A DNA stretch of 64,000 nt, from positions 3,925,230 to 3,989,229 of the forward strand of contig NC_087079.1 of NCBI RefSeq assembly GCF_026151205.1. Reading direction: 5' to 3'. Below the pieces are notes generated by a model. The model made no database searches. It was not told the origin of the DNA and saw nothing but the letters and a program-made list of their open reading frames with translations. This stretch comes from Bolinopsis microptera. Taxonomy: Eukaryota; Ctenophora; Tentaculata; Lobata; Bolinopsidae. Within the stretch, counting starts at the first letter, position 1. Each line of letters begins with the position of its first letter. Below, piece after piece: positions 270 through 41,830 of the stretch. The position numbers and the translations under genes were made by a program.

Positions 270-2983
270 GATTTGGGTTTGACAGTTGGGCAGCAGGTGA
301 CTGCTAATCCTTTTCGGGATAAGATAGAGTACCAAGCAACCATCCTACGCTGCGTTAAGGTATGCACAATAATAATAATATTAAGTACTTTTTGTGAGAC
401 TTTTTGTGAGACCATTTTATTCCACTTGTTGTCCAGGCGACTGGCTTGAAACCTAACCAATTTTTAATGACAATATTCATAATAAGATAGTGCAAATTAT
501 TTACACTTATTTCAGAGGGGCATCTTTGAACTACAGTTCGATGATGTTTGCTGCAACGTGTCTAGAAAATATATAAAGCTGATAACAGGTGAGATATGTA
601 TACTATCGGCTAGGCCTCCTTTTAAAATAAAAATTGGGTAAATGAGTTAACAATTTTGCGATCGTTGAATTAAAAGTAAAACGTGTTATTATCAGTTTAG
701 ACCTTTAAACCTTTAGACATTTATTGACAAATAACTGTAAATGTAATATAGTTTTTAAGTTTATGTATGAATTGTTTCCAAATTTCAAGAAACATATGCA
801 TTTCAGATCAAACGACAGACGAGACCGGATCTGTAATGGATGGTCCAGCTGAAGACAAGACCAGATCTTTAATGGATGGTCCAGCTAAAGACGAGACTGG
901 ATCTGTAATGGATGGTCCAGCTGAAGACGAGACTGGATCTGTAATGTGTGGTCCAGCTGAAGACGAGACTGGATCTGTAATCGATGGTCCAGCTAAAGAC
1001 GAGACCGGATCTGTAATGAATGGTCCTGCTGAAGACGAGACCGGATCTGTAATGTGTGGTCCAGCTGAAGACGAGACTGGATCTGTAATCGATGGTCCAG
1101 CTGAAGACGAGACCGGATCTGTAATGAATGGTCCTGCTGAAGACGAGACCGGATCTGTAGTGGATGGTCCAGCTGAAGACGAGACCGTATCTGTAATGGA
1201 TGGTCCGGCTGAAGACAAGACCGGATCTGTAATAAATGGTCCTGCTGAAGACGAGACCGGATCTGTAATGGATGGTCCTGCTGAAGACGAGACCGTATCT
1301 GGAATGGGTGGTCGAGCTGAAGACGAAACCGGATCTGTAATGGATGCTCCGGCTGAAGGCAAGACCGGATCTGTAATCGATGGTCCAGCTGAAGATAAGA
1401 CCAGATCTGTAATAAATTGTCCTGCTGAAGACAAGACCGGATCTGTAATGAATGGTCCTGCTGAAGACGAGACCGGATCTGTAATGGATGGTCCTGCTGA
1501 AGACGAGACCGTATCTGTAATGGGTGGTCGAGCTGAAGACGAAATCGGATCTGTAATGGATGGTCCGGCTGAAGGCGTGACCGGATCTGTAATAAATGGT
1601 CCAGCTAAAGACGAGACCGGATCTGTAATGGGTGGTCCAGCTGAAGACAAGACCGGACCTCGAGAAAACGACAATAAAGCTAATAAGCAAATGAGTTATT
1701 CTGGAATTTTAGAGAAAGAGAACAATTCAAAAAAAAACCCATATGAAGGTAAACCATTTGAATGTAATGTTTGTTCCTTCTCTTCCTCCTCCGAACCTCT
1801 TCTTCAGAAACATCTTCTGAAACATCTTCTGAAACATCAGAGAGTTCATACTAAAGAAAAACCTTTCGAGTGTGAACAGTGCTCATATGCTTGTTCTTAT
1901 AAACATCATCTAGTTTTACATCAGCGTATTCACACTGGTGAGAAGCCCCACAAGTGCAATGAATGCTCATATGCTTGTGCTCAAAAAAGTGGTCTAGTCC
2001 AACATCAGAAAATTCACACTGGTGAAAGACCATTCAAGTGTGAACATTGCTCATATGCTTCTACTCAGAAAGGCACTCTAGACTTACATCAACGAATTCA
2101 CACTGGTGAGAAACCATACAAGTGTGAGGAATGCTTGTTTGCTTTTACTCATAAAGGTAGTCTAGATAGACATCAGCGGATTCACACAGGGGAGAAACCC
2201 TACAAGTGTACAGAATGCTCATATGCTTCTTCTATAAAAGGAAATCTAGTCGTACATCAGAAAGTTCACAGTAATGAAAGACCATTCAAGTGTGAACAGT
2301 GCTCATATGCTTCTTCTCATAAACGCCTTCTAGTTTTACATCAGCGAATTCACACTCGTGAGAAATCCTACAAGTGTGAACATTGTGCACATGCTTTTGC
2401 TCTAAAATGTGATTTAGTGAAACATCGGCTAATTCACACTAGTGAGAAACTGTACAAGTGTACAGAATGCTCAAATGCTTTTTCTTATAAACATCATCTA
2501 ACCAATCATCAGAAAATTCACACAGGTGAGAGACCCTTCAAGTGCAAGGAATGCTCATATGGTTGTATTAAAAAACATGATCTTATCATACATCAACGAA
2601 TTCACACTGGTGAGAAACCCTACAAGTGCGAGGGATGCTCATATGCTTGTTCTCGAAAATCTAATCTAATCCAACATCAGCGAATTCACACAGGGGACAA
2701 TCCCTACAAATGCAGCGATTGTAAATACACAAGTTCTTCTGAATCAAATCTTATGCATCATCAACGAATTCACACCGGAGAGGAATTCTACAAGTGCGAG
2801 GAATGCTCATATGCTTGTTCACAAAAATGTGATCTAGTGAAACATCAGCGAATTCACACCGGTGTGAAACCCTACAAGTGCGAGGAATGCTCATATGCTT
2901 GTGCTCAAAAAAGTAATCTTATCCGACATCAGCGAATTCACAAAAGTGTGAACTGTGAAACCCTACAAACGCAGCGACTTTGA
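270..2983 (+). CDS. Family-A zinc-finger protein A1 (5' partial): Tudor-like exons, 23 acidic repeats, 14 C2H2 fingers
   Basis: Probable nuclear sequence-specific DNA-binding protein. I read exons at 270-359, 516-588 and 807-2983, each with AG/GT borders and matching phases (0, 0, 1). Exon 1 (MADGDK.. in the paralogues) should lie just left of the window, because position 1 is inside the homologous intron 1. Exons 2-3 encode about 54 residues (VGQQVTAN..YQATIL..FELQFDD) resembling a small Tudor/SH3-like barrel; that fold is inferred. Exon 4 starts with 23 copies of a 12-residue acidic repeat, then a linker and 14 C2H2 fingers joined by TGEKP-type linkers. Finger 1 carries an extra LLKHLLKH insertion. 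A Met upstream of 807 falls in the intron and was not used. The frame ends early: a degenerate fifteenth finger continues in another frame to 3049. Closest relative in the window is A3. Fingers and repeats are certain; the splicing model is inferred from four paralogues. Confidence 0.82.
824..1651 (+). repeat. 36-bp coding minisatellite of A1, 23 units
   Basis: Twenty-three head-to-tail 36-bp units, each encoding a variant of TGSVMDGPAEDE. No unit breaks the frame. Variation sits mostly at residue 2 (G/R/V), residues 5-6 (MD, MN, MC, ID, IN, MG) and the last residue (E/K). Because 36 is a multiple of three, open frames also appear on the opposite strand. Confidence 0.97.
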
Positions 2984-3049
2984 ATACGCCAGCCCTTCTA
3001 AATCAAATCTTTTAAAACACCAACGAATTCATAATGAAAAGAAACGTTA
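2984..3049 (+). pseudogene. Degenerate last finger of A1
   Basis: In a different frame from the A1 ORF this stretch reads as a terminal finger remnant (SDFEYASPSKSNLLKHQRIH) ending at a TAG at 3047-3049. The first zinc-binding Cys of the finger is replaced by Arg. The same tail is seen after A2, B2 and B3, so it is an ancestral C-terminus lost by frameshift here. Confidence 0.7.
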
Positions 3050-3070
3050 GAAAAGAAGATCAGTTAAGTG

Positions 3071-4998
3071 CAGCAATAGCAGCAAATCTGGGGAAACTTG
3101 GTGGACATTGACTTTTTTCACAAAATTTGTGTATGTTGACTTCAACATGATATTGCAGCTTATTGTGGTTAATCTCAATGTTGGAGTGATGTTTTTCTGG
3201 TGCGCAAAACACTGCAGTACAGTTATGTTGAATAATTGAGGTTAATGAATCCTCTATGTGGCCACTATGGTGGTTTAAATACCAGTTTTAGGGTTAACCA
3301 CCATTTTGAGATATGATATTATGAAATGAGTAGTCATTATATTGAGATCATCCCATGGTGCAACTATTACAAAAGTTTAAAACTCTTATTGGGGGCATTT
3401 TGTGGTCCTAATGGTGGTTAAATGGAAGATGAACGATGAGCAATAAATATTGCTCTGGTTATAGATGTATAGTGGTGGTTGTTCATTTGTACATGGATGA
3501 TAATTTTTCATCACAAATGTGCAATTTAATAGTATGGTTAATTTTAGGTGGTTAATATTCGTAAAAAATGCTAAAAAGATGGTTAAAACGTCAAAATATT
3601 TTGTTAACCACCAATCAAAACAATATTAATGCTTTTAGTCAACTGTTTCTGGTCAACAAAGGATATTTGAAGGGTTTTGATAACAGTTATCAAGAAATGT
3701 TGTCATTAAAGTGGTTAAAAGGGCTATATGACTTGCTAGGCTGTTGAACAAGGCATCTATTAAAGTGAAAATTAACCACAATATGAAGTTCGGATAATGG
3801 TTTGCTATCCAATTGAGTGTATAATTGTTTGCAAATCCATAATTGACCCCAAGTTCATGCATTATGATCAATGTGCAGCTATGGTGGTTAAAATGTCTCG
3901 AAAATACCCTATATTTGCTCTAATTAACCATTTTTAGAGCACATATTAGCTTTGTAAAGCTATAGCTGGCCATGCTGCATTATCTAGATATAACTACCAG
4001 CTCATCTATGTGCACAAAAACATTGCTGAGTCCTTTGTTGCGTCCAGCATGGTTAATAAAGGTCTAAAATTGACCTAAATCAGTGTTTTTGGTCGTTTTA
4101 AACCGCCATACGGCCACACATTCTGTTGCATTATCTTTAAAATCACTTATTATCCTTCAGCTATCTCTCATAATCAAATATCAAAACAAAATAAGGCACA
4201 AAAAGTTTGGAGGTTGCTGAATAATGGTTAATTAGTGATGGCTTCTGTTGACCGAAAGTCCAAAATAAACATGTTTTAACCACATTGAGGCCACATCTAA
4301 GGTTTTATGGTATTGGGACCATAGCCAAAAGTTTTGGGCACCTGGATGGTGTCCTCTGCCTCTGAAATTATAGTGATATTTCAATGCTGTGCCATACCAG
4401 GTGGTTAAGTACGCGCAAGCGCTCTCGCACGCGTACAAACATGGTTTTTTTGATATACCACAGTTGGTGGTTAACTGTTCTACATCAGACCTTCACTAAA
4501 AGTATTGGGCACCATAGTGGTGACATAATATATAAAGAATTTAAGCATAGACTAAATATGTTGGCCTACAGATGGTTAAGTACGCGCAAGCGCGCGCGCA
4601 CGCGTACACTATAACATAAACAAATAAACCACTCCACAGACCACATTTATTAATTTTTTTATTTCCTTCTTCAACTATGTGTCAATGAACCATTTTTGTT
4701 TAATAATGACCATCAATTTTAACTGTACTACTCATATCTTCACTGTAGTAAGGGTTTGGGTGTAAGAAGTATAAAAAATGTCCACTAACAAATCAGTCAT
4801 TTTTCGACTACTTAACCACCTAACTCAGCACCAAAATGTTCTGAGATTTTTTTCGTTGCACTATCATAAAGCTATGACATTTTTGAACCTATGTAAATAT
4901 TCAGATTACTAGAATTCATATTCTGTGATTTTTAAGGGGTGGTTAAATGCTTCAAAGTGGTGTATTTCAAAGTTTCCCCAGATTTGCTGCTATTGCTG
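3071..4998. mobile_element. 1.93-kb non-autonomous DNA transposon with 29-bp terminal inverted repeats
   Basis: The ends are 29-bp inverted repeats (3071-3099 and 4970-4998) beginning CAGCAATAGCAGC. No ORF above 76 codons lies inside, so it lacks a transposase. The interior carries about 20 scattered copies of TGGTTAA or its complement, and two 38-bp GC-rich direct repeats near 4400 and 4570. The sequence is absent from the matching positions after B3 and A4, which fits an insertion specific to the A1 copy. I could not define a clean target-site duplication, so the superfamily is open. Confidence 0.82.
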
Positions 4999-5606
4999 AG
5001 AGTTGTCTCACTATTGTTTTTTAGATTATTGATGCTCTTGCTTGCAAATCTTGTTCTCCCCAAATTTGAGACATTTATTCTAGAGTCTTGACAGACATTG
5101 AACACTAATTGTTACCACCTGTTGTTAAGACACACGATTTAAACTGTGTGGAAATTGTGTTCTGTAAACTATGCCTTTTAATTCAGATGTACTGCAGGAA
5201 CATACACTGCTTGGGCCCTATGCAGGAGGACGTAACATTAACAGCCGGTAACATTAACAGCCGGTAATGGTTATATTAGACAATGTGGCGTTACTTTTTA
5301 AAGTTTTTATTAATGCTTGTATGTTTCATAATTTATTGCAAAGTAAAGATATTATTTTGTAATCTTGAGATGAATTTATACAAATTATCGATTTTTAGAT
5401 TTAGTCTTTAGAACCGTGATTTTGTCCTGCAGAGCTAGAGGGTTTCCCTGACCCCTTCGAAATAGCTTAATAAAATATTTTTGGATTATGAAACCATCCA
5501 AAGGTATATGATTTAAGTGTTTAATGTGATAAGAAAAGTTGTTACTGTTTTAAATACTCGTATAATTACTAATTGTATTTAATGTAATTCTAACTTCTTG
5601 AATCTG
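4999..5606. other. Cluster spacer following A1
   Basis: Non-coding sequence found with variations downstream or upstream of every zinc-finger gene here (compare 9837-10356, 33860-34130, 34994-35347 and 41223-41830). It would hold the 3' end of an A or B gene and the 5' region of the next gene. Apart from a duplicated short motif near 5235-5268 (AACATTAACAGCCGGT twice) I see no further feature. Confidence 0.6.
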
Positions 5607-5613
5607 ATCACAG

Positions 5614-5690
5614 GAAAGATTTCCATGTCAAATCGGGAGATTTATTGAACATATCGCTGCTCACATTACCAAACATTGTATGTCAAAATT
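5614..5690 (+). pseudogene. Family-B remnant between A1 and A2
   Basis: After a splice-acceptor-like TCACAG the sequence matches the start of family-B exons (GAAAGATTTCCATGTCAAATCGG, i.e. MSNRE), then jumps to a stretch reading FIEHIAAHITKH, comparable to the MEHIKEHHE segment of the isolated finger. About 60 codons, including the SUMO-motif region, are deleted, and the original frame stops at once. The same remnant occurs inverted near 39,765-39,810, so the deletion predates the duplication. Confidence 0.7.
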
Positions 5691-6136
5691 TAAATTTTTA
5701 CATATTATCATGAATCTACGCTCAATTCCACACATACAAGTAAGTGCAGTTTCAAAGCAAAATTCAACAACATCATTTTTTAAACAAACATATTATGTGC
5801 CTTCACAGTCATTCTGTGATATGTAGCATCCTTTTGTTGTTTAATTATGGATGAAGTAGACTCTAGAACATGGTGAGACTTTCCATTGGTAATGCTTAAA
5901 GTATTTCCATTAAATTATTGTTTAAATCAGCACGCACGTCCTGATCCTCGTGATCGTAGTAATAGACATTTCATGCTCGCTGTATGTGCTGTTGTTTACA
6001 GAACTCTGATTGGGGCATGTGATATTAAGCCTGCTTTCATGCCACATTTGCCTCGACTGTCTTATGATGTAAATGACTTGTAATTTCATGGTTATACAGC
6101 TCATATACTGACTTTATTATTTTGAAGCTTAAGTCC
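5691..6136. other. Upstream region of A2
   Basis: Intergenic stretch before the A2 start codon, conserved in inverted form upstream of A4 (39,285-39,760) and partly upstream of A3. It presumably contains the family-A promoter and 5' UTR. I see no clear core promoter motif. Confidence 0.5.
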
Positions 6137-8871
6137 ATGGCTGACGGTGACAAAATGGGAAGAAATCATGGCTGTGATACTGATGAGAAGGTTTGTTTAT
6201 CATTGCTAGAGCTATAATTTTATAATAAAGTTTGGTAAAATATGACAGTTAAATTATTTTAGAGGCTTAGTAGGTAAATGTTGCAATATCTAGACCATCT
6301 AGAGAGTTATTAATTAGTTTGTACCTAAAAATAATAACGACATGGACCCCCAAAATTATTGTGCACATTTTCTTGAATAAAATTATTTTGCACGTTTTTC
6401 TTAAACATGACGCTCTCTAGTAGTATACCTTGTTTTATACATTATAGTTCTAGTGAATAGATTTTCACTCCGCAGGATTTGGGTTTGACAGTTGGGCAGC
6501 AGGTGACTGCTAATCCTTTTCGGGATAAGATAGAGTACCAAGCAACCATCCTACGCTGCGTTAAGGTATGCACAATAATAATAATATTAAGTACTTTTGG
6601 TTTAAAGCAGTGTGAGACCATTTTATTCCACTTGTTGTCCAGGCGACTGGCTTGAAACCTAATCAATTTTTAATGACAATATTAATAATAAGATAGTGAA
6701 AATTATTTACACTTATTTCAGAGGGGGATCTTTGAACTACAGTTCGATGAAGTTTGCTGCAACGTGTCTAGAAAATATATAAAGCTGATAACAGGTGGGA
6801 TATTTATGCTATCGGCTAGGCCTCCTTTAAAAATAAATATTGGGTAAATAAGTCAACAATTTTGCGATCGTTGAATTAAAGTAAAACGTGTTATTATCAC
6901 TTTGGACAGTTATTGCCAAATAACTGTAAAATATAGTTTTTAAGTTTATGTATGAATTGTTTCCGAATTTCAAGAAACATGTGCATTTCAGATCAAATAG
7001 CAGACGAGACCAGATCTGTAATGTGTGGTCAAGCTAAAGACGAGACCGGATCTGTAATGAATGGTCTAGTTGAAGACGAGACCGATTCTGTAATGGGTGG
7101 TCCAGCTGATGACGAGACCAGATTTGTAATGGGTGGTGCAGCTGAAGACACTACCGATTCTGTAATGGATGGTCCAGCTGAAGATAAGACAGGATCTGTA
7201 ATGGATGGTTCAGCTGAAGACAAGATCGGATCTGTGATAGGTGGTCCAGCTGAAGACGAGACCGATTCTGTAATAGGTGGTCCAGCTGAAGACGAGACCG
7301 GATCTGTTATGGATGGTTCAGCTGAAGACAAGATCGGATCTGTAATAGGTGGTCCAGCTGAAGACAAGATCGGATCTGTAATGGATGGTTCAGCTGAAGA
7401 CAAGATCGGATCTGTAATAGGTGGTCCAGCTGAAGACAAGATCGGATCTGTGATAGGTGGTCCAGCTGAAGACGAGACCGATTCTGTAATGGATGGTCCA
7501 GCTGAAGACAAGACAGGATCTGTAATGGATGGTTCAGCTGAAGACAAGATCGGATCTGTAATAGGTGGTCCAGCTGAAGACAAGACCGATTCTGTAATGG
7601 ATGGTCCAGCTGAAGACAAGACCGGATCTGTAATAGGTGGTCCAGCTGAAGACGAGACCGATTCTGTAATGGGTGGTCTAGCTAAAGACGAGACCGGATT
7701 TGTAATGGGTGGTCCAGCTAAAGACGAGACCGGATTTGTAATGGGTGGTCTACCTGAAGACGAGACCGGATTTGTAATGGGTGGTCCAACTGAAGACAAG
7801 ACCGTTTCTGTAATGGATGGTCCAGCTGAAGACAAGACCGGATCTGTAATGGGTGGTCTAGCTGAAGATAAGACTGGATCTGTAATGGGCGGTCCAGCTG
7901 AAGACAAGACCGGATCTCGAAAAAACGACAATAAAGCTAATAAGCTTATGAGTTTTTCTGGAATTTTAGAGAAAGAGAAGAATTCAAAGAATACCCCCTA
8001 TGAACGTAAACCATTTGAATGTAATATTTGTTCCTTTTCTTCCTCCTCCGAACCTCTTCTTCAGAAACATCTTCTGGAACATCTTCTGAAACATCAGAGA
8101 ATTCATACTAAAGAAAAATCTTTCGAGTGTGAACAGTGCTCATACGCTTGTTCTAATAAACATCATCTAGTTTTACATCAGCGAATTCACACTGGTGAGA
8201 AGCCCCACAAGTGCAAGGAATGCTCATATGCTTGTGCTCAAAAAAGTAGTCTAGTCGAACATCAGAGAGTTCACACTGGTGAAAGACCATTCAAGTGTGA
8301 ACATTGCTCATATGCTTCTTCTCAGAAAGGCACTCTAGACTTACATCAACGAATTCACACTGGTGAGAAACCATACAAGTGCGAGGAATGCTCATTTGCT
8401 TTCACTCAAAAAGGTAGTTTAGTTAAACATCAGCGAATTCACACTGGTGAGAAACCCTACAAGTGTACAGAATGCTCATATGCTTCTTCTATAAAATGTA
8501 ATCTAGTCCAACATCAGAAAGTTCACACTAATGAAAGACCATTCAAGTGTGAACAGTGTTCATATGCTTCTTCTCGTAAACGCCTTCTTGTTTTACATCA
8601 GCGAATTCACACTGGTGAGAAACCCTACAAGTGTACAGAATGCTCATATGCTTCTTCTATAAAATGTAATCTAGTCCAACATCAGAAAGTTCACACTAAT
8701 GAAAGACCATTCAAGTGTGAACAGTGTTCATATGCTTCTTCTCGTAAACGCCTTCTAGTTTTACATCAGCGAATTCACACAGGTGAGAAACCCTACAAGT
8801 GTACAGAATGTTCATATGCATGTTCTGTAAAAGGTAATCTAGTCAAACATCAGCGAAATCAGCATTTGTAG
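6137..8871 (+). CDS. Family-A zinc-finger protein A2: complete model, 25 acidic repeats, 10 fingers
   Basis: The most complete family-A gene. Exons: 6137-6190 (18 residues, MADGDKMGRNHGCDTDEK), 6476-6565, 6722-6794 and 6992-8871; all introns are GT-AG and phases agree. Exons 2-3 give the Tudor-like segment. Exon 4 has 25 acidic 12-residue repeats, a Ser/Lys-rich linker and 10 C2H2 fingers. Fingers 6-7 and 8-9 are a near-perfect 168-bp tandem duplication. The last finger has an altered His spacing (HQRNQH) before TAG, and a finger remnant follows the stop. Contact positions vary between fingers while the backbone (CSYAC/S..LV.HQRIHTGEKP) is fixed. Likely a nuclear DNA-binding regulator; targets unknown. 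The start is supported by conservation of exon 1 in A3 and A4. Confidence 0.85.
7009..7908 (+). repeat. 36-bp coding minisatellite of A2, 25 units
   Basis: Twenty-five in-frame 36-bp units. A2 favours types such as IGSVIGGPAEDK and TDSVMDGPAEDK that are rare or absent in A1 and A3. Pairs of unit types recur in blocks (about 7200-7640), which suggests two-unit (72-bp) duplications. Confidence 0.97.
8452..8787 (+). repeat. Tandem duplication of a two-finger block in A2
   Basis: Two adjacent 168-bp copies (8452-8619 and 8620-8787), each encoding one CTECSYASSIKCNL finger and one CEQCSYASSRKRLL finger. They differ at only about two nucleotides, so the duplication is recent and extends the array by exactly two fingers. 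Confidence 0.95.
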
Positions 8872-10367: not shown

Positions 10368-11510
10368 ATGTCAAATCGGGAGACAAGATCACAAACTGTT
10401 AAAGTTGAAGTGAAGACTGAGATTCTGGACCATATTATCAAGAAGGAGATAAAGACTGAGCTACAGGAAGTCACCGGGAAGTCACACGGTTTTATTTGTC
10501 CCACATGTAAAGCTCATTTCCTTTACGATGAGTTCTTTATGGAGCATATTAAAGAACACCACGAGAATATGGCTGCTGAAAAAGTAAATTCTAATCAGCC
10601 AATGAGTTCTTCTGGAATATCAGAAAAAGAGAACAATTCAAAGAATACCACACATGTAAGTGAACCTTTAAAATGTGATGTTTGTTCCTTTTCTTGCTCC
10701 TACGAATCTCATCTTCTGGAACATCAGAGAGTTCATACTAATAAAAATCCATTAAAATGTCAACAGTGCTCATATGCTTGTTCTCATAAACGTGATATAG
10801 TGAAACATCAGCGAATTCACACTGGTGAGAAACCCTACAAGTGTGAACAGTGCTCATATGCTTGTACTCAAAAATGTAATCTAGTGAAACATCAGCGAAT
10901 TCACACAGGAGAGAAACCCTACAAGTGCAAAGATTGCTCATATGCTTGTACTCAAAAAGGTAGGCTAGTTAACCATCAGAGAATTCACACAGGAGAGAAA
11001 CCCTACAAGTGCAAAGATTGCTCATATGCTTGTACTCAAAAATGTAATCTAGTTAACCATCAGAGAATTCACACCGGTGAGAAACCCTACTGTAAGTGCA
11101 AGGAATGCTCATATGCTTGTTATCTAAAAAGTAGTCTAGTGAAACATCAGAGAGTACACACTAATGAAAAACCATTTAAGTGTGAACAGTGCTCATATGC
11201 TTCTTCTCGGAAAGACACTCTAGACTTACATCAGCGTACTCACACGGGTGAGAAATCCTACAAGTGTGAACAGTGCTCATTTGCTTTCACTCAAAAAGGT
11301 AATCTAGTCAGACACCAGCGAATTCACACTGGTGAGAAACCCTACAAGTGTAAACATTTCTCATATGCATGTTCTCAAAAACATCCTCTAGTCAGACATC
11401 AGCGTGCTCACACGGGTGTTCATACTCCTATAATTACAAGCAGTGCTCCCATCATACTTGAGCCGACTCAAACCAGAAAGAAAAAAAAGTCAAAAGGTAG
11501 AGGAAAGTAG
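10368..11510 (+). CDS. Family-B zinc-finger protein B1: SUMO-motif tetrad, isolated finger, 9-finger array, basic tail
   Basis: Exon begins at 10357 after TTTGCAG; the first Met (MSNRETRSQ) is at 10368. A Met further upstream would be intronic. Residues about 10-30 hold four psi-K-x-E motifs (VKVE, VKTE, IKKE, IKTE), typical SUMO acceptor sites. An isolated N-terminal C2H2 finger (CPTCKAHF..HIKEHH) follows, then a Ser/Asn linker and an array of nine fingers. Finger 6 has a one-residue insertion before its first Cys (YCKCKEC). In finger 9 the second Cys is Phe (CKHF), so it is probably not folded. The tail is a unique segment ending in a Lys-rich cluster (RKKKKSKGRGK), a likely nuclear signal. 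Probable SUMO-dependent DNA-binding regulator, by inference. The other family-B copies lack this tail. Confidence 0.85.
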   Translation: MSNRETRSQTVKVEVKTEILDHIIKKEIKTELQEVTGKSHGFICPTCKAHFLYDEFFMEHIKEHHENMAAEKVNSNQPMSSSGISEKENNSKNTTHVSEPLKCDVCSFSCSYESHLLEHQRVHTNKNPLKCQQCSYACSHKRDIVKHQRIHTGEKPYKCEQCSYACTQKCNLVKHQRIHTGEKPYKCKDCSYACTQKGRLVNHQRIHTGEKPYKCKDCSYACTQKCNLVNHQRIHTGEKPYCKCKECSYACYLKSSLVKHQRVHTNEKPFKCEQCSYASSRKDTLDLHQRTHTGEKSYKCEQCSFAFTQKGNLVRHQRIHTGEKPYKCKHFSYACSQKHPLVRHQRAHTGVHTPIITSSAPIILEPTQTRKKKKSKGRGK

Positions 11511-12269: not shown

Positions 12270-14164
12270 ATGAGATGTCTCTGTGCGATAGACAGCATTG
12301 GCAACGACGTCATCTTCCTCAACTGTGACAGTGAATTCAACACCTACCTCCAAAAAGAAGCAGTGAAACTTTTTGGTGATGACTATGTCGCAGCGGACAC
12401 AACCACACCTGATATAAACGTAGCAACAATCTTCTTCCTCCCCTTCACCACCATCCAGAACAAACAACACCAGCAGAACAACCCACTCAACTCTGTTCTC
12501 TGTCAGGATGGTTTAAAAGTGGCTCTCCACCGCTTTGACAATATTGATGTGGTGGCTGTAGACAGCGATTCGAGTAGCAAGAACGCTTGTTTGTCACAGT
12601 GCGTGGTTTTTGAGAAGTTGGCAAAGCTACATTTGGGACCGGCTACTCTGTATTTGAAACCCAGTGATCTGGCATTGCGGAGGCAGCTGTGGACTAAGAT
12701 ATCTGATTATCTTGATTATTGGAACGATGTGTGTGGTTTGTCTGAAAAATACCTCTGTAGTGATGATGAATATTTTAGTATGACGTGTGAAGAAAATTTC
12801 AAGCAACACTTCCTATTCCAAGCAGTTGAAGAGCTGCATATTAACACAGAACTGAAACGCCAAGCAACTGAACTGGTAACAGAAGCTCTGCAATCAGCCC
12901 AGAAGATAGACAGAGCTTACTGTGAGGCTATCCTTGTAGTAAACGGTAAAGTTTTAGTCTCTCACTCATACAGACAAGCTCAGCGACTGGACCCCTCAGA
13001 TTTACTCTTTATACTGTTTATAGCTCACTGCTCTCTACCCAAGTCTCCTGTAGAAATAGATTACGGTGATAACCTGTCCGAATCAGAGGAGATGAAACAT
13101 CACCAACAAAACATCTTTATCAGAAAAGTAGATCAGACTGACAATTACCTGCCCTGTACTCTAACTGCGGTTTGTATTCGCGCTGGTATTGTGCTGATCC
13201 TCCTAGCAGAAACTAAGACTGCCATCGCGCCAAACATTTGCCGTGCCATTCAGTCGCTCTCTCAGTTGTACAGCAAAATAGATGAGATTGCTACAGAAGC
13301 TGAGAGAGGCCAGCATAACGCGCAGATTAATACCAAGACTCTGCCAACTAATTTTCTCAAAGTGAAAGGTGTGGTTGATTTTTATTTTGCGCGCATGGAG
13401 AAGGACATGGAAAACATCAGTACTCGTCTTAGCCACCAGTGGAATAAAGTACGTGACCACTGGTATGCGGTTTCCACTAGCGCGGGGCACTTGGGTGAGG
13501 AAAACCGGTATTTTCACGAGTTTGAGAGGAAAACGTTCAGTTTAATCACCGATTTAAGGAAACTTTTTTACAGTATCTACTGCACTGACGAGGACTCGGA
13601 GATCCACAAAGATATCAATGATATCTACAAGAAAGTGTCTCTCGGTCTCCGGGACTCCTCCTCATTTCTCCTGGTGAAAGCTCAGAGAAACTTCACACTC
13701 GGCAACTACCTGTCCGACTTCCAGGGATAGTCCACTTCCTTGTGATTGATAGGACTAAGAACAAGATAATAGTCCCCTCACTTGGCGCTCAAGGGCAGAG
13801 TGCCCGCTTCTGTCACAAGATCATACAAACACTTGCCAGGTTCCATCGCAACATGGTTCACAGCGGCTACCTGGGTGGTTTCATGAAGAAAAAAGACATG
13901 TTGTTCACATATAAACTGTGGTTTCAGAACCAAGGGAAGGTGGTCTCACCGGAGACAACAGTTCAGTATGTACCTACTCAGCCCCGGTCACAACTACTCT
14001 GCATGTTGTATCATAACATGGTTCAGCATTACTTTGGTGCACGTGCCCCGCTTGTGGAATGTTTTGAGCTACTGACTATACATATTGGAGAGGTTCCCTT
14101 GGAGTATGTTAATGATTCTGCTACTCGTCTTATGCAGGTTGTGGTGTCTGATTTCGCTTCGTAG
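12270..14164 (+). CDS. HPS1: HPS1, BLOC-3 subunit (one-base frameshift)
   Basis: Orthologue of Hermansky-Pudlak syndrome 1 protein, which with HPS4 forms BLOC-3, the exchange factor for Rab32/Rab38 in lysosome-related organelle biogenesis. The start MRCLCAI matches the known N-terminus (MKCVLVA), and the context (..SSFLLVKAQRNFTLGNYL) is a hallmark. The frame 12270-13730 ends at TAG directly after DFQG; homology resumes at once in the next frame (IVHFLVIDRTKN..) and runs to 14164. One missing base in the GGG at about 13726-13728 explains this, giving about 631 residues against 700 in human. The whole coding region lies in one exon. A homopolymer error is the simplest cause; a real null allele is possible. 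An AATAAA follows at about 14562. Confidence 0.9.
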
Positions 14165-26702: not shown

Positions 26703-27115
26703 CTGACAATCATCTGTTAATGCTCCGTCGCAGTTATTCCAGTATTGTTGTAGATAGAGTTGCAGATAGAGTAGCAGTATTTTGTAGCAGTATTTTGCAA
26801 CATCTAACTTTTTGGACGTCTTGTTCTCCGTAACCCCACTAATATCAACTTCCCCCTGCCCCCCCCCCCCCACTATACTCAGTAACCTCACTAATATCAA
26901 ACATTCCCCCTGCCACCACACCATCCCCCCGGTATCACATCAAAAGATCCCATCCTGGTATCTTCCGCACTCCCTGACTTGTAGGACTCTGCCTCAGGGG
27001 CTTAGCCACACTGTTGCTTTCCTCGTCCAACTGCGTTCTGCTCTCACAATCCCTTTAACGAGAGCAGGACCTGCACTACTGGTCCGGGTCTGAGGGTCGC
27101 TGGCCCATGAGGACT
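26703..27115. other. Low-complexity flank of SEC11
   Basis: Contains two copies of a C-rich unit of about 55 bp (around 26832-26925, CACTAATATCAAC/A..TTCCCCCTGCC) and long C runs. No gene supported; the missing SEC11 exon may be here or beyond the minisatellite. Confidence 0.5.
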
Positions 27116-28260
27116 GGGCTGCCAAGCATTGCTAACTTCTGAGGGGGGGGGGTTAATGTAATGAGACTGGGCATGCGAGCATGCTGCTTCTGAGGGGGGG
27201 GGGGTTAATGTAATGAGACTGGGTGCGAGCATGCTACTTCTGAGGGGGGGGGGTTAATGTAATGAGATGGGCTGACCAAGCTGCTCCTTCTGAGGAGGGG
27301 GGGGTTAATGGAATGAGATGGGGCTGCGGCATGCTGCTTCTGAGGGGGGGGGGGTTAATGTAATGAGGACTGGGCTGCCGAGCATGCTGCTTCTGAGGGG
27401 GGGGGGTTAATGTAATGAGGACTGGGCTGCCCGTGCATGCTACTTCTGAGGGGGGGGGGTTAATGTAATGAGACTGGGCTGCCAAGCATGCTACTTCTGA
27501 GGGGGGGGGGGGGGGTTAATGTAATGAGACTGGGCTGCGAGCATGCTACTTTCTGAGGGCGGGGGGGGGTTAATGTAATGAGGGACCGGGCTGCCGAGCA
27601 ATGCTGTTCTGAGGAGGAGGGTTAATGTAATGAGACTGAGCTGCCGAGCATTGCTGCTTCTGGAGGGGGGGTTCAATGTAATGAGATGGGGCTGCCGGCA
27701 TGCTGCTTCTGAGGGGGGGGGGGGGGTTAATGTAATGCGGACTACGGGCTGCCGAGCATGCTGCTCTGAGGGGGGGGGTTTAGTATATGAGACGGGCTGC
27801 CGAGAATGCTGCTCTGAGGGGGGGGGTTAATGTAATGAGATGGGCTCCGAGCATGCTGCTTTGTGGGGGGGGGGTCAATGTAATGAGACTGGGCTCGCCG
27901 AGCATGCTATTCAGAGGGGGGGGGGGTTAATGTAATGAGATGGGCTGCCGAGCATGCTGCTTCTGAGGAGGAGGGTCTAATGTAATGAGGACTGGGCTGC
28001 GAGATGGTGCTTCTGCGGAGGGGGGTTAATGTATGAGACTGGGCTGCCGAGGCATGCAGCTTCTGAGGGGGGAGGGTTAATGTATGAGACTGGGCTGTGC
28101 CGAGCATGCTGCTTCTGAGGGGGGGTTAATGTAAATGAGACTGGCTGCGAGCATGCTGCTTTAGGAGGGTTAATGTAATGAGCTGGGTGCCGACATGCTA
28201 TTCTGAGGGGGGGTTAATTGTTATTGAGCCTGAGGGCTGCGAGCATGCTGCGTCCTAAGG
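27116..28260. repeat. Minisatellite 1: about 22 units of roughly 51 bp
   Basis: Unit core: GGGGGGTTAATGTAATGAG, then ACTGGGCTGCCGAGCATGCTGCTTCTGA. Units differ by single-base indels and by G-run length (5-14), so no frame is kept and the many predicted ORFs are spurious. The indel pattern is what uncorrected long-read sequence also looks like. Confidence 0.95.
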
Positions 28261-28740
28261 AGGGGTGTGTTGAATTATGGGGTGAAAAGAAGGAGAGTGC
28301 GGTGGTCTTTTTTTATCAAGGGACACGTATTTTACTTCGGAGTATTCCAACAGCTTATTGTTCAAAGTGCAACCAGCCAATTACAGGAAGCCGAAAAAGT
28401 ATTTGATGCCTTAATCGAGCTTACTTGAAGCTTATTTTCTATTGTTAAGAGCCATAGATGATTCCAGTGTTTAATTTCGTTTTTATGAGGGGCTCATGAT
28501 ATTCTAATTATGAAGATTATTGTTGGCATATAATTTGCTTCGTAGTATAATGAAACTTCCTGGCATATATAGTTCTTATGACCAATTATTAACCTACAAA
28601 ACTAGAATTACTCATTTATTTCCCGCGTCTGTTTTCTCAGATGGTTTGCGTGTGGCAGTACTAGGAGGCTCGTGGTCAGCGTTCTTGCTACTTGTACCTC
28701 GTCGGTGCTGCTTTTTATTGAATCTCGGTCAAAGTCAGCA
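28261..28740. other. Unassigned stretch between minisatellites 1 and 2
   Basis: About 480 bp of non-repetitive AT-rich sequence without a supported gene. Confidence 0.5.
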
Positions 28741-31354: not shown

Positions 31355-33525
31355 TTAAACTTTACTGGGTTTCTTTTTCGTGCGCTCCTCGCTTCTGAGT
31401 TCCAGGTCCTCTGAAAACAGCCTCATTTGAATTCGCTGATGTAAAACTAGAAGGCGTTTATGAGAAGAAGCATATGAGCACTGTTCACACTTGAATGGTC
31501 TTTCATTACTGTGAACTTTCTGATGTACGACTAGATTTCCTTTTATAGAAGAAGCATATGAGCATTCTGTACACTTGTAGGGTTTCTCCCCTGTGTGAAT
31601 TCGCTGATGTCTATCTAGACTACCTTTATGAGTAAAAGCAAGCAAGCATTCCTTACACTTGTATGGTTTCTCACCAGTGTGAATTCGTTGATGTAAGTCT
31701 AGAGTGCCTTTCTGAGTAGAAGCATATGAGCAATGTTCACACTTGAATGGTCTTTCACCAGTGTGAATTTTCTGATGTTGGACTAGACCACTTTTTTGAG
31801 CACAAGCATATGAGCATTCCTTGCACTTGTGGGGCTTCTCACCAGTGTGAATTCGCTTATGTAAAACTAGATGATGTTTATAAGAACAAGCATATGAGCA
31901 CTGTTCACACTCGAAAGGTTTTTCTTTAGTATGAACTCTCTGATGTTTCAGAAGATGTTTCAGAAGATGTTTCTGAAGAAGAGGTTCGGAGGAGGAAGAG
32001 AAGGAACAAACATTACATTCAAATGGTTTACCTTCATATGGGTTTTTTTTTGAATTGTTCTCTTTCTCTAAAATTCCAGAATAACTCATTTGCTTATTAG
32101 CTTTATTGTCGTTTTCTCGAGATCCGGTCTTGTCTTCAGCTGGACCACCCATTACAGATCCGGTCTCGTCTTTAGCTGGACCATTTATTACAGATCCGGT
32201 CACGCCTTCAGCTGGACCATCCATTACAGATCCGATTTCGTCTTCAGCCGGACCATCCATTACAGATACGGTCTCGTCTTCAGCAGGACCATCCATTACA
32301 GATCCGGTCTCGTCTTCAGCAGGACCATCGATTACAGATCCGGTCTTGCCTTCAGCCGGAGCATCCATTACAGATACGGTCTCGTCTTCAGCTGGACCAT
32401 CCACTACAGATCCGGTCTCGTCTTCAGCAGGACCATTCATTACAGATCCGGTCTCGTCTTCAGCTGGACCATCGATTACAGATCCAGTCTCGTCTTCAGC
32501 TGGACCACACATTACAGATCCGGTCTCGTCTTCAGCAGGACCATTCATTACAGATCCGGTCTCGTCTTCAGCTGGACCATCGATTAAAGATCTGGTCTTG
32601 TCTTCAGCTGGACCATCCATTACAGATCCGGTCTCGTCTGTCGTTTGATCTGAAATGCATATGTTTCTTGAAATTTGGAAACAATTCATACATAAACTTA
32701 AAAACTATATTACATTTACAGTTATTTGTCAATAAATGTCTAAAGGTTTAAAGGTCTAAACTGATAATAACACGTTTTACTTTTAATTCAACGATCGCAA
32801 AATTGTTAACTCATTTACCCAATTTTTATTTTAAAAGGAGGCCTAGCCGATAGTATACATATCTCACCTGTTATCAGCTTTATATATTTTCTAGACACGT
32901 TGCAGGAAACATCATCAAACTGTAGTTCAAAGATCCCCCTCTGAAATAAGTGTAAATAATTTGCACTATCTTATTATGAATATTGTCATTAAAAATTGAT
33001 TAGGTTTCAAGCCAGTTGCCTGGACAACAAGTGGGATAAAATGGTCTCACACTGCTTTAAACCAAAAGTACTTAATATTATTATTATTGTGCATACCTTA
33101 ACGCGGCGTAGGATGGTTGCTTGGTACTCTATCTTATCCCGAAAAGGATTAGCAGTCACCTGCTGCCCAACTGTCAAACCCAAATCCTGCGGAGTGAAAA
33201 TCTATTCACTAGAACTATAATGTATAAAACAAGGTATACTACTAGAGAGCGTCATGTTTAAGAAAAACGTGCAAAATAATTTTGTGCAAGAAAATGTGCA
33301 CAATAATTTTGGGGGTCCATGTCGTTATTATTTTTAGGTACAAACTAATTAATAACTCTCTAGATGGTCTAGATATTGCAACATTTACCTACTAAGCCTC
33401 TAAAATAATTCAACTGTCATATTTTATGAAACCTTATTAAAAAATTATAGCGCTAGCAATTATAAACAAACCTTCTCATCAGTATCACAGCCATGATTTC
33501 TTCCTATTTTATCACGGTCAGCCAT
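31355..33525 (-). CDS. Family-A zinc-finger protein A3: 14 repeats, truncated finger array
   Basis: Minus-strand exons: 33472-33525 (MADRDKIGRNHGCDTDEK), 33097-33186, 32868-32940 and 31355-32649, with the same phases as A1 and A2. Exons 2-3 give the Tudor-like segment; exon 4 has 14 acidic repeats and six complete C2H2 fingers. The seventh breaks off at HQRI before its last His. From about 31,430 the coding sequence continues into an unrelated tail (MRLFSEDLELRSEERTKKK..) ending at 31355. This breakpoint removed the fingers corresponding to A1 fingers 8-14. Repeats and fingers are otherwise almost identical to A1, so this is a recent duplicate of A1 cut by a rearrangement. The protein could still bind DNA with six fingers, but the tail is not from the family. 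Confidence 0.82.
32129..32632 (-). repeat. 36-bp coding minisatellite of A3, 14 units
   Basis: Fourteen in-frame units. Unit order matches A1 with internal blocks missing: both contain DAPAEGK, EGV and INGPAKDE variants near the 3' end. The difference from A1 (23 units) is therefore by deletion or expansion of whole units. Confidence 0.97.
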
Positions 33526-37034: not shown

Positions 37035-39284
37035 CTAAAAATGCTGAATTCGCTGATGTTGGAGTAAATTATATTTCCGAGAACAAGCATATGAGCATTC
37101 CTCGCACTTGTAGGGTTTCTCTCCGGTGTGAATTCGTTGATGATGTATAAGATTTGATTTAGAAGAACTTGTGTATTTACAATCGCTGCATTTGTAGGGA
37201 TTGTCCCCTGTGTGAATTCGCTGATGTTGGATTAGATTAGATTTTCGAGAACAAGCATATGAGCATCCCTCGCACTTGTAGGGTTTCTCACCAGTGTGAA
37301 TTCGTTGATGTATGATAAGATCATGTTTCTTAATACAACCATATGAGCATTCCTTGCACTTGAAGGGTTTCTCACCTGTGTGAATTTTCTGATGTTTAAC
37401 TAGACTACCTTTTTCAGTGAAAGCAAATGAGCATTCCTCGCACTTGTATGGTTTCTCACCAGTGTGAATTCTCTGATGTTTAACTAGACTACCTTTTTGA
37501 GTGAAAGCAAATGAGCATTCCTCGCACTTGTAGGGTTTCTCACCAGTGTGAATTCGTTGATGTAAGTCTAGAGTGCCTTTCTGAGAAGAAGCATATGAGC
37601 AATGTTCACACTTGAATGGTCTTTCACCAGTGTGAACTCTCTGATGTTCGACTAGACTACTTTTTTGAGCACAAGCATATGAGCATTCCTTGCACTTGTG
37701 GGGCTTCTCACCGGTGTGAATTCGCTGATGTAGAACTAGATGATGGTTATAAGAACAAGCATATGAGCACTGTTCACACTCGAAAGGTTTTTCTTTAGTA
37801 TGAACTCTCTGATATTTCAGAAGATGTTTCAGAAGATGTTTCAGAAGAAGAGGTTCGGAGGAGGAAGAAAAGGAACAAACATTACATTCAAATGGTTTAC
37901 GTTCATAGGGGTTTTTTTTTGAATTGTTCTCTTTCTCTAAAATTCCAGAATAACTCATTTGCTTATTAGCTTTATTGTCGTTTTTTCGAGATCCGGTCTT
38001 GTCTTCAGCTGGACCACCCAATACAGATCCGGTCTTGTCTTCAGCTGGACCACCCATTACAGACCCGGTCTTGTCTTCAGCTGGACCACCCATTACTGAT
38101 CCGGTCTTGTCTTCAGCTGGACCACCCATTACAGATCCGGTCTTGTCTTCAGCTGGACCACCCATTACAGATACGGTCTCGTCTTCAGCTGGACAATCCA
38201 TTACAGATCCGGTCTCGTCTTCAACAGGACCATTCATTACAGATCCGGTCTCGTCTTCAGCTGGACCATCGATTACAGATCCAGTCTCGTCTTCAGCTGG
38301 ACCACACATTACAGATCCGGTCTTGTCTTCAGCTGGACCAACCATTAAAGATCCGGTCTTGTCTTCAGCTGGACCATCCATTACAGATCCGGTATCGTCT
38401 GCCGTTTGATCTGAAATGCATATGTTTCTTGAAATTTGGAAACAATTCTGAATACATAAACTTAAAAACTATATTACATTTACAGTTATTTGTCAATAAA
38501 GGTCTAAACTGATAATAACACGTTTTACTTTTAATTCATTGATCGCAAAATTGTTAACTCATAATTTACCCAATATTTATTTTAAAAGGAGGCCTAGCCG
38601 ATAGTATAAATATGTCACCTGTTATCAGCTTTATATATTTTCTAGACACGTTGCAGCAAACATCATCGAACTGTAGTTCAAAGATCCCCCTCTGAAATAA
38701 GTGTAAATAATTAGCACTATCTTATTATGAATATTGTCATTAAAAATTGGTTAGGTTTCAAGCCAGTCGCCTGGACAACAAGTGGAATAAAATGGTCTCA
38801 CAAAAAGTCTCACAAAAAGTACTTAATATTATTATTATTGTGCATACCTTAACGCGGCGTAGGATGGTTGCTTGGTACTCTATCTTATCCCGAAAAGGAT
38901 TAGCAGTCACCTGCTGCCCAACTGTCAAACCCAAATCCTGCGGAGTGAAAATCTATTCACTAGAACTATAATGTATAAAACAAGGTATACTACTAGAGAG
39001 CGTCATGTTTAAGAAAAACGTGCAAAATAATTTTGTTCAAGAAAATGTGCACAATAATTTTGGGGGTCCATCAGTCCATGTTGTTATTATTTTTAGGTAC
39101 AAACTAATTAATAACTCTCTAGATGGTCTAGATATCGCAACATTTACCTACTAAGCCTCTAAAATAATTCAACTGTCATATTTTACCAAACTTTATTATA
39201 AAATTATAGCGCTAGCAATGATAAACAAACCTTCTCATCAGTATCACAGCTATGATTTCTCCCCATTTTGTCACAGTCAGCCAT
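37035..39284 (-). CDS. Family-A zinc-finger protein A4: 11 repeats, 10 fingers
   Basis: Minus-strand exons: 39231-39284 (MADCDKMGRNHSCDTDEK), 38848-38937, 38619-38691 and 37035-38410, phases as in the other copies. After the Tudor-like segment come only 11 acidic repeats, five of them near-identical GGPAEDK types, then ten C2H2 fingers. Fingers 5 and 6 are a tandem pair (CEECSFAF..KGSLVKH). Fingers 7-9 match A1 fingers 10-12, while fingers 3-5 match A2, so the array is a mosaic of the two. The last finger has altered His spacing (HQRIQH), as in A2. It lies at the mirrored position of A2. Function as for A2; the variable fingers imply a different DNA target. Confidence 0.84.
37998..38393 (-). 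repeat. 36-bp coding minisatellite of A4, 11 units
   Basis: Eleven in-frame units, the shortest array of the four. Units 7-11 are almost the same type (T.SV.GGPAEDK), indicating recent local homogenisation. Confidence 0.97.
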
Positions 39285-39852
39285 GGACTTAAGCTTCAAA
39301 ATAACAAAGTCAGTATTATATTATATGAGCTGTATGACCAGGAAATTACAAGTCATTTACATCATAAGACAGTCGAGGCAAATGTGGCAGGAAAGCAGGC
39401 TTGAGATCACATGCCCCAATGAGAGTACTGCAGACAATAGCTCACACAACGAGCATGAAATGTCTATTACTACGATCACGAGGACGTGCTGATTTAAACA
39501 ATAATTTAATGGAAATACTTTAAGCATATTACCAATGGAAAGTCTCACCATGTTCTAGAGTCTACATCATCCATTTAAACAACAAAAGGATGCTATATAT
39601 CACAGAATGACTGTGAAGGCACATAATATGTTTGTTTAAAAAATGATGTTGCTGAATTTTGCTTTGAAACTGTACTTACTCGTATGTGTGGAATTGAACT
39701 TAGATTCATGATAATATGTAAAAATTAAAATTTTGACATACAATGTTTGGTAATATGAGCAGCGATATGTTCAATAAATCTCCCGATTTGACATGGAAAT
39801 CTTTCCTGTGATCAGATTCAAGAAGTTAGAATTACATTAAATACAAGTAATT
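39285..39852. pseudogene. A4 upstream region with inverted family-B remnant
   Basis: Contains the reverse complement of the remnant at 5614-5690 (MSNRE start followed by the internal deletion), at about 39,765-39,810, and the family-A upstream region. Confidence 0.65.
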
Positions 39853-41222
39853 AATAATAATAATAATAAAATTTGGTAGCTTAAACACAAACTCTAAGCC
39901 CAGTGGATAAACCACAAAACTTATGCTCTATTGTGTGAAACAAAGATACTAGATCAAGATAACTATCAAGGAGTGTATGCATAGGACATAAAAAGTTTTG
40001 GAACGAAGATGACATGCTTATGAAGCGAGCTAACAGTCTAATTGCTAATAAGTTCAAAAAGATCATGACATTAGGTTGCATCCTAAACAGTTTAAGCAAA
40101 TAACATAAAGTTATAATGTCAATTAATCGCTCATGCCATAACTTTTCTTAAACAGGTGAGTTTTTAATAATGTTTTGAACAGATCAACATCAGAACAAGT
40201 CTTAATTTCAATTGGTAGTTGGTTCCAGATTTTCGGAGCAACAGTCTGAAACGCTCTTGGGTGCGATCTTGTAGATCCGACAGGTAGGTGTAAGGAGGAA
40301 GTTCTTCTGCTACTCGAACTAACAAATGTTACTAGATCACACAGATATGCAGGAGCAACACCATTGACTGCTTTGAAAATCAGTAAACATAACTTAAACT
40401 CAATCCTTTCCTTCACCTTGAGCCAATGAAGGGATTTGAGCTTCTCCTCGACTGAGTCTCTCTTCTTTAATCCAAAAACCAGACGGCATGCTCGGTTCTG
40501 AATGTTCTGCAGCTGCGTAATTGAGGCTTGACTACAACCATAGTAAAGCGCATTGCAGTAGTCTAGCGATGAGATTACAATTGCTTGAGTCAGTGTTCCC
40601 ATCTGTTTGGTTGTGAGGAATGTTTTCATCTTAGCAAGGTCTCTTAGTTTCAGAAAACACGATGTTTTAAGTTGCTTGATTTGCTCACCAAAGTTTAGTT
40701 GAGAGTCGAGACGAAATCCGAGGTTCTTTGCAACAGGTGACAGCCTGACACACGTCTCAGAGTTAACAAACACGCCCCCTATAGACAGCTGCTGGAGAAC
40801 AAGCGGTGTCCCAAAAACAAGAATCTCAGTTTTTCCTGCATTGAGCTGTAGATAATGTTTTTTCATCCAGTCATTAATTTCTTGGAAACATTTGGGAACA
40901 TCGTTGATAAGGACGGTGGGCTCCTCGTTTGGCTTGAAACTTTTATACAGCTGATGATCGTCGGCGTAACCCTGGATGGAGAAGTTCAAATCATGTGCTG
41001 CTGAGTACAAAGAGCGAATGTAGATGTTGAACAGGACCGGACCCAGCACAGAGCCCTGTGGGACTCCAAACTTAATCACTATCTCATAAGATTCCTCATT
41101 TCCAACTTTAATCGTTTGACATCTACCTGTGAGGAAGCTGCTGAACCATTTCCAAGCTGTCCCTGTTATTCCCAACTCATTTCTGAGGATGTTCAGTAGT
41201 TTGCAGTGGTCAACTGTATCAA
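39853..41222 (-). mobile_element. 5'-truncated CR1/L2-like LINE with partial reverse transcriptase
   Basis: Reading leftwards from 41222, an open frame (..DTVDHCKLLN.. to stop at 40123) encodes the second half of a LINE reverse transcriptase: GVPQGSVLGP (motif B), the catalytic YADD box, then the thumb and a C-terminal region typical of CR1/L2 elements. The 5' part, including motif A, is missing. The 3' end is a (TTA)n tail at 39,853-39,870. The frame is intact over 360 codons, so the insertion is young. The matching plus-strand site near 5560-5580 is empty. Confidence 0.9.
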
Positions 41223-41830
41223 AATTATACGAGTATTTAAAACAGTAACAACTTTTCTTATCACATTAAAGACTTAAATCATATACCTTTGGATGGTTTC
41301 ATAATCCAAAAATCTTTTATTAAGCTATTTCGAAGGGGGCAGGGAAACACTCTGCAGGACAAAATCACGGTTCTAAAGACTAAATCTAAAAATCGATAAT
41401 TTGTATAAATTCATCTCAAGATTACAAAATAATATCTTTACTTTGCAATAAATTATGAAACATAAAAGCATTAATAAAAACTTTAAAAAGTAACGCCACA
41501 TTGTCTAATATAACCATTACCGGCTGTTAATGTTACCGGCTGTAAATGTTACGTCCCCCTGCATAGGGCCCAAGCAGTGTATGTTCCTGCAGTACATCTG
41601 AATTAAAAGGCATAGTTTACAGAACACAATTTCCACACAATAATCGTGTGTCTTAACAATTACAGGTGGTAACAATTACTGTTCAATGTCTGTCGAGACT
41701 CTAGAATAAATCTCTCAAAATTGGGGTGAACAAGATTTGCAAGCAAGAGCATCAATAATCTAAAAAACAATAGTGAGACTACACTTAAAACTGATCTTCT
41801 TTTCTAACGTTTCTTCTCATTATGAATTCG
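41223..41830. other. Cluster spacer following B3
   Basis: Inverted homologue of 5005-5565, without the 1.93-kb transposon. No gene. Confidence 0.6.

Follow-up and report, generated by a model that had tools for sequence, protein, structure and literature searches.

How zinc-finger families acquire their N-terminal effector domains is mostly unexplained, the SCAN domain being a known case of a mobile-element source. In ZAD-ZNF genes, the exon that encodes the variable fingers is preceded by a short conserved N-terminal piece. FiNZ- and KRAB-ZNF genes follow the same plan, with the conserved piece on one or more separate exons (PMC10547256; papers with a PMC number are cited throughout from parts of their text). 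In SCAN zinc-finger genes a mobile-element domain has been exapted ahead of a C2H2 array; this domain resembles the gag capsid of long terminal repeat retrotransposons and multimerises (PMC4592553). Proteins combining an integrase zinc-binding domain, a BTB domain and C2H2 fingers also carry a mobile-element or viral domain before the array; almost all are chordate and, in the part of the source cited, they are described without a Tudor-like front and without an acidic repeat (PMC12062965, where ZBTB11 is named in a reference title). In host-transposase fusions such as SETMAR, CSB-PGBD3 and KRABINER, transposon coding exons are joined to a host regulatory gene, and the transposon DNA-binding domain tends to join a host regulatory domain (PMC12062965, citing Cosby et al. 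2021). Here we describe four zinc-finger genes, A1 to A4 (family A), from a 64,000-nt stretch of the genome of the ctenophore Bolinopsis microptera (C8:3925230-3989229, hereafter the window), in which a Tudor/SH3-like front and an acidic repeat hinge precede the fingers, and we propose that they derive from a host-transposon fusion that was later duplicated.

Mobile-element domains on C2H2 arrays and host-transposase fusions are both already known, and family A appears to be a new variant. In contrast to the host-transposase fusions, the transposon would have given the N-terminal adaptor and the hinge and the host the DNA-binding fingers, with no transposase domain left; this direction of capture is opposite to the tendency reported for such fusions. 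Family A differs from SCAN genes in its Tudor/SH3-like front, its DNA-transposon source and the inclusion of a coding minisatellite. FiNZ-, KRAB- and ZAD-ZNF genes form large families, whereas family A numbers four members, and a relative of its front can be traced in a transposon. By a term search, the main text of a survey of transposon-derived transcription factors that includes ctenophores does not use the words C2H2, Tudor, fusion or chimeric (PMC10027918). Among the literature matches listed, no title or abstract start describes a transposase layout with repeat and front or genes with front, hinge and fingers.

The genes were modelled by script with GT-AG introns and matched phases (0, 0 and 1), the splicing being read from the sequence. 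A1 and A2 lie on the plus strand, A3 and A4 on the minus strand, and all share one layout: an 18-codon leader exon, a 90-nt exon 2 (phase 0-0), a 73-nt exon 3 ending in phase 1, and an exon 4 encoding both hinge and fingers. This four-exon plan, already drawn in the first-pass annotation, was recovered in all four genes with GT-AG introns and equal phases; three leaders lie inside the window, and that of A1 starts outside it, at -69, and reads MADRDKMGRNHSCDTDEK. Exons 2 and 3 encode the front peptide DLGLTVGQQVTANPFRDKIEYQATILR(C/R)VKRGIFELQFD(D/E)V(C/S)CNVSRKYIKLIT. In exon 4 of each gene an acidic 36-nt minisatellite runs in frame (copy numbers in Table 1), without a stop before the C2H2 fingers. 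These are in frame with TGEKP-type linkers and number 14, 10, 6 and 10 in A1 to A4 by the pattern C..C.{12}H.{3,5}H, in agreement with the 6-14 previously estimated. The frames are open over about 500-780 codons and the splice sites are kept in all four genes. The interval to which the family had been assigned, 270..8871, covers A2 and A1 without its leader; A3 and A4 lie outside it.

Searches of the whole genome (264.65 Mb assembly, 232 contigs) confined the family to this locus. Exon 2 DNA gave four matches among four candidates, all in A1-A4. The hinge peptide was found at 18 places (56 scored), 17 of them in A1-A4 and the last on C11, at 37% identity and with five stops. No host gene beyond A1-A4 with the front appeared in two genome protein searches (E up to 10). 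Family A is a local four-gene family, not a large one.

The nearest relative of the front lies at the start of the transposase gene of a DNA transposon. The spliced front matched ten places in the genome, namely eight exons of A1-A4 and the two copies, on C2 and C5, of an element designated TE1, which is 53% identical to family A over exon 2 and 49% over the spliced front. The TE1 gene comprises a 90-nt homologue of exon 2, a homologue of exon 3 that also ends in phase 1, acidic repeats and a transposase-like region; a possible leader exon upstream, MTHSVKLRKRKGRGGTLSVE, ends in phase 0. The C2 and C5 copies are 98.2-98.7% identical over 6.5-6.7 kb, have unrelated flanks and end in 34-bp inverted repeats matching at 94%, which argues that TE1 is mobile. 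On C2 the hinge holds about 36 copies of a 27-nt unit encoding VVAAGSED(T/M), and repeat and transposase are in different frames; on C5 repeat and transposase-like region share one open frame, with motifs such as DSCGGQNRN. The TE1 transposase matched DUF7869 (PF25273) at E 5e-4 to 7e-4 (19.7-20.2 bits), under the 26-bit cut-off. No DUF7869 domain was found in the family A frames, given the Pfam search of the front and an exon 4 made of hinge and fingers. The C2 copy sits between open reading frames (ORFs) that by a motif resemble a myosin gene.

SH3-like barrels are short and common, and the front might be an unrelated small barrel that merely resembles the transposon domain. Against such convergence stand the 49% identity over the spliced front, a pairwise score of 130 that none of 2000 shuffles reached (maximum 40), and the equal exon 2 length and phases. 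The shared intron phases come close to refuting it, and we regard it as scarcely credible.

A second family with the same plan was recovered with the TE1 front, which matched 11 genomic places, the new ones being TE2 on C1 and C4 and a decayed fragment at C8:10.24 Mb. In TE2 a single-exon front is followed by a repeat hinge in one frame with the transposase; the hinge unit is about ten residues (PSEPSISAAT, read from the ORF), inverted repeats lie at the edges, and the flanks are compatible with AT and TA as target-site duplications. The C4 copy exceeds the DUF7869 cut-off (34.8 vs 26 bits). Of 66 genomic candidates, 35 matched the TE1 transposase, and the matches on C2, C5 and C152 did so at 99% identity or more. 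We examined seven of the 35 loci: two of TE1, two of TE2, one of TE3 (C10:1.97 Mb) and two of TE4 (C10:2.30 Mb and C6:19.3 Mb), TE3 and TE4 being classed as transposons by their transposase only. A tandem repeat lies ahead of the transposase in all seven, with a front in five and a piece of one in a sixth; we did not find this layout, with its family-specific repeat, described in the literature searched, nor any mention of DUF7869. In TE3, whose transposase is 50% identical to that of TE1, a front-like stretch is present, and an acidic 27-nt unit (EADEGGNRS) is repeated 23.7 times in one frame with the transposase. The two TE4 loci have a 63-nt unit in common (23.1 copies in the fetched stretch at C10:2.30 Mb, which starts inside the repeat array, and 2.5 copies at C6, where the piece of front was found), in a frame separate from the transposase.

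The front similarities were beyond all 2000 shuffles for TE1-TE2 (score 80), A-TE2 (51) and TE2-TE3 (44), as for A-TE1. In the six-row alignment used for the pairwise scores, the profile and the Pfam rows below, the TE3 row was shortened by 16 residues, a suspected short intron or loop, and the TE4 and C8 rows are partial. By these comparisons the tie of family A to TE1 and TE2 is firm; for TE3 and TE4 it is the common plan, rather than sequence, that mainly carries the tie. The repeat unit differs from one to another of the four families examined (27, about 30, 27 and 63 nt), as if a hinge were needed and its sequence free. The decayed front on C8 lies at C8:10239196-10239270; nearby is an exon 3 piece, KYIKLISG, close to the KYIKLITG of family A, and a TE1-like transposase relic (76% identity) lies about 6 kb from it, at C8:10245344-10245541.

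The recipient is recorded in the flanks. Zinc-finger genes of a second family, B, adjoin A1-A4; they start with MSNRETRSQTVKVEVKTEILDH and have related fingers. The unfused gene B1, which exceeds the zf-C2H2 cut-offs, served as comparator. Upstream of A1, A2 and A4 the first five codons of the family-B gene survive together with its splice acceptor and 5' flank; homology ends at B1 position 10383 and begins again at 10582, immediately ahead of the fingers. The B coding sequence in between, some 200 bp, is replaced by about 2.2 kb (A1), 2.3 kb (A2) and 1.8 kb (A4) that hold leader, front and hinge, and the old start remains in these three genes as a short upstream open reading frame (uORF), MSNREIY*. 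The family-B start gave 150 scored genomic matches among 355 candidates (E up to 0.001); its genome-wide presence, together with the flank remnants in family A, indicates that B is ancestral and A derived. The earlier view of the front as a standalone module is not supported: a related front and repeat hinge precede a transposase in the same genome, and the zinc-finger gene that now carries the front has had its own start replaced.

The family-B start is in its own right a large N-terminal module of this genome by the same counts. The starts at 10368-10583, 34770-34982 and 43066-43281 carry a run of psi-K-x-E motifs (VKVE, VKTE, IKKE and IKTE), presumably resembling SUMO sites, followed by a lone finger. 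In another member, B3, an in-frame stop (42922-42924, minus strand) lies between the start and a long block of fingers, whose frame is that of the start.

On the gene models, coding sequence homologous to a transposase gene stands in frame with host domains, as in a fusion gene. We put at about three in four the probability that family A arose by fusion of a host gene with a transposon and was duplicated afterwards. A family-B zinc-finger gene would have received a DNA transposon related to TE1 in its first coding exon. Of the transposon, the 5' exons (the leader and the two-exon Tudor-like front) and the acidic minisatellite would have been retained and the transposase domain lost; the host gene would have lost about 200 bp at its start, and the hinge would have been joined in frame to the host finger array, before the fused locus duplicated to four copies. 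Transcription probably still starts from the ancestral zinc-finger promoter, as three copies keep the old splice acceptor and, in a uORF, the old start codon; the leader ATG would be used after this short uORF. The fingers may choose the DNA site and the acidic hinge act as a flexible spacer, with the small barrel as an adaptor to chromatin or proteins, which would have tethered the transposase when it was still part of the transposon.

The direction of transfer deserves separate consideration. Transposons can acquire host exons, and A and TE1 agree in intron positions and phases, which would fit transposons that took front and hinge from a family A host gene or its ancestor. This course is improbable in our estimation. 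The front of TE2 resembles that of TE1 more than that of A, and the TE1 and TE2 fronts both precede a DUF7869-type transposase, which makes a transposon the most likely donor; moreover, the front of family A is found in four copies at one locus, where the scar of the fusion lies within a coding exon, and the protein searches above show it in no other host gene.

Several observations weigh against capture from a TE1-like transposon. A3 has no 5' junction, and no element with the 12-residue hinge of family A, that is, no exact donor, was found in the genome search. The TE1 inverted repeat was not recognised at the 5' junction, and comparison of the A2 insert with transposon DNA outside the exons gave one marginal match (E 0.45). 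Homology of the A and TE1 hinge units could not be demonstrated, with 75 of 500 shuffles reaching the score (15 of 500 for A-TE3 and 4 of 500 for TE1-TE3; all units were typed by hand). The TE3 and TE4 fronts are not significantly similar to that of A (214 and 434 of 2000 shuffles reach the score) or of TE1 (1071 and 1128), and TE2-TE4 similarity is likewise not beyond shuffles. Repeat and transposase are not in one open frame at three of the seven loci (C2, C10:2.30 and C6). The argument from recurrence of the plan is weakened by the TE1-TE3 front comparison and by the split frames of TE4. Finally, exons 2-3 do not differ significantly from the introns in variability (5/163 variable sites vs 41/565 ungapped columns outside splice signals; p 0.066).

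The front is likely to be a Tudor/SH3-like barrel. The Tudor-like reading of the first-pass annotation is weakly supported, in that weak matches agree on Tudor/SH3 families at scores below Pfam cut-offs. The Pfam search then suggested for the exon 2-3 peptide, run here with leader, front and hinge start (E up to 10), returned 53-BP1_Tudor (PF09038) as sole match at E 0.038, which is sub-threshold (14.4 bits vs 22); KRAB, zf-AD and SCAN gave no match. Six front rows together matched seven Pfam families, five of them of Tudor/SH3 types, the best at E 0.0015 (DUF4537, which we count as Tudor-like). Among 32 shuffles of four front rows no Tudor/SH3 family appeared and four other families matched, one at E 0.0021. 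Single E-values near 0.002 therefore carry little weight, and what weighs is the agreement among families.

Structural databases gave a similar picture. As a single sequence the front matched nothing in PDB (E up to 10). The six-row profile gave 29 matches, led by SPT5 chains (E 0.006 and 0.008) and a DNMT3B chain (0.008), presumably KOW and PWWP barrels; a G-protein chain (E 0.12) and Tudor chains (0.48 and worse) followed. A three-row profile without TE3, TE4 and C8 was preferred; it matched 13 sequences, with a G-protein chain on top (E 0.37) and 12 Tudor sequences at E 0.78-1.5, all of which belong to just two proteins, 53BP1 and PHF20L1. Against 53BP1 Tudor 1, a partner picked after the searches, the family A front scored 46, which none of 2000 shuffles reached. 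The likeness to the 53BP1 and PHF20L1 Tudor domains consists of this weak profile and pairwise similarity; the difference lies in the scores under the cut-off and in the ligand cage. Of the residues that form the methyl-lysine cage of 53BP1 (W1495, Y1502, F1519, D1521 and Y1523; PMC5974088), family A aligns P, Y, F, D (E in A2) and V or C, so that three of five are kept and, by alignment, W1495 and Y1523 are not conserved. A complete classical methyl-lysine cage is not predicted.

The copies are recent. Exon 1 is as variable as the introns (5/54 sites, three copies), and the nonsynonymous sites of exons 2-3 gave p 0.064, not significant and with an estimated site number; purifying selection on these exons is suggestive only. 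The front might then be absent from any functional protein, the genes being inert by-products that persist only through recent segmental duplication. The low intron divergence and equal variability of exon 1, the non-significant constraint on exons 2-3, and A3, with the fewest fingers and no 5' flank, all favour this, which we nonetheless hold unlikely: four long frames are open with every splice site kept, and the introns carry indels, several of a length not a multiple of three. All four copies have kept their splice sites, phases and frame although the introns diverged, which makes the architecture more than chance. An uninterrupted frame across the minisatellite says little by itself, because the minus-strand frames there are open too. 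Neither the front nor the TE2 transposase found a relative in viral-contig and genome-contig collections, among which no eukaryote collection was included.

The fingers vary in a manner compatible with diversifying DNA binding. Over all 40, helix positions -1, 2, 3 and 6 show 11, 7, 7 and 9 residue types; two other columns also show 7. Nearest finger pairs differ by 0.132 nonsynonymous changes per codon at contact positions vs 0.065 elsewhere (34 non-independent pairs, compared without a test). Conservation of the zinc ligands is uninformative in this comparison, as fingers were selected by the C2H2 pattern. By analogy with KRAB genes, the front could recruit chromatin or partner proteins and the fingers be aimed at transposons. 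For such a repressor, in which the fingers would select transposons and the front would bring in a silencing complex, speaks the variability of the DNA-contact positions, among the highest, and the larger difference there between nearest pairs. The front, however, matches none of KRAB, zf-AD and SCAN, and there are only four genes with no target known; we find this function doubtful, and with only four copies found in the genome the earlier picture of a diversifying KRAB-like family is not supported.

A broader scenario is tentative, and we rate it somewhat below even odds: a group of DNA transposons may encode, before a DUF7869-like transposase, a module for tethering to chromatin that combines a basic leader with a Tudor/SH3-like reader and, as spacer, a rapidly changing coding minisatellite. 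A host zinc-finger gene of an early-branching animal would have captured this module whole, and what had been the transposon's means of targeting would now act as an adaptor under host fingers. A single genome shows the donor type, the recipient family and the limits of the replaced stretch, with unfused relatives present, so that the step is directly testable. Family A also touches the lineage in which C2H2 proteins of Mnemiopsis, CTEP1 and CTEP2, bind chromatin-loop anchors, the loops being associated with transposable elements (PMC12221973).

Table 1. Positions of family A exons, repeats, family-B remnants and neighbouring genes in the window
Feature	Position	Strand	Basis
A1 exon 2, first half of Tudor-like front (DLGLTVGQQVTANPFRDKIEYQATILRCVK)	270..359	+	gene model
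A1 exon 3, second half of Tudor-like front, ends phase 1	516..588	+	gene model
A1 exon 4, acidic hinge and 14 C2H2 fingers	807..2983	+	gene model, ORFs
A1 acidic minisatellite, 36 nt x 23.4	817..1657	+	tandem repeat
A2 retained family-B 5' flank and first codons; B1 homology stops here	5058..5640	+	alignment to B1
A2 remnant of ancestral start, uORF MSNREIY*	5625..5648	+	sequence reading
A2 exon 1, leader (MADGDKMGRNHGCDTDEK)	6137..6190	+	gene model
A2 exon 2, first half of Tudor-like front	6476..6565	+	gene model
A2 exon 3, second half of Tudor-like front	6722..6794	+	gene model
A2 exon 4, hinge and 10 fingers	6992..8871	+	gene model
A2 acidic minisatellite, 36 nt x 25.4	7002..7917	+	tandem repeat
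B1, unfused family-B gene, comparator; about 10384-10581 is the part missing from family A	10368..11507	+	alignment
FUZ/MON1/HPS1-type longin host gene	13622-14164		Pfam
A3 exon 4, hinge and 6 fingers	31355..32649	-	gene model
A3 acidic minisatellite, 36 nt x 14.4	32120..32639	-	tandem repeat
A3 exon 3	32868..32940	-	gene model
A3 exon 2	33097..33186	-	gene model
A3 exon 1, leader	33472..33525	-	gene model
A4 exon 4, hinge and 10 fingers	37035..38410	-	gene model
A4 acidic minisatellite, 36 nt x 11.4	37989..38400	-	tandem repeat
A4 exon 3	38619..38691	-	gene model
A4 exon 2	38848..38937	-	gene model
A4 exon 1, leader	39231..39284	-	gene model
A4 remnant of family-B exon start (uORF MSNREIY* from 39794)	39779..39866	-	alignment
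Reverse-transcriptase ORF (RVT_1) splitting the retained ancestral 5' flank of A4 in two	40123..41265	-	Pfam, alignment
WD40-like propeller host gene	45645-46580		Pfam
VTT domain host gene	50037-50801		Pfam
TCF25 host gene	59542-61560		Pfam

Elsewhere in the window, an intact ORF of 1011 residues on the minus strand (52369-55404) has no Pfam match at E 0.001; by its motifs it looks Penelope-like. Three further minisatellites, at 27107-28213, 28731-29237 and 30474-30745 (units of 51, 56 and 41 nt), contain no plus-strand ORF of at least 100 residues, and within the first of them a minus-strand ORF of 111 residues lies at 27491-27826.

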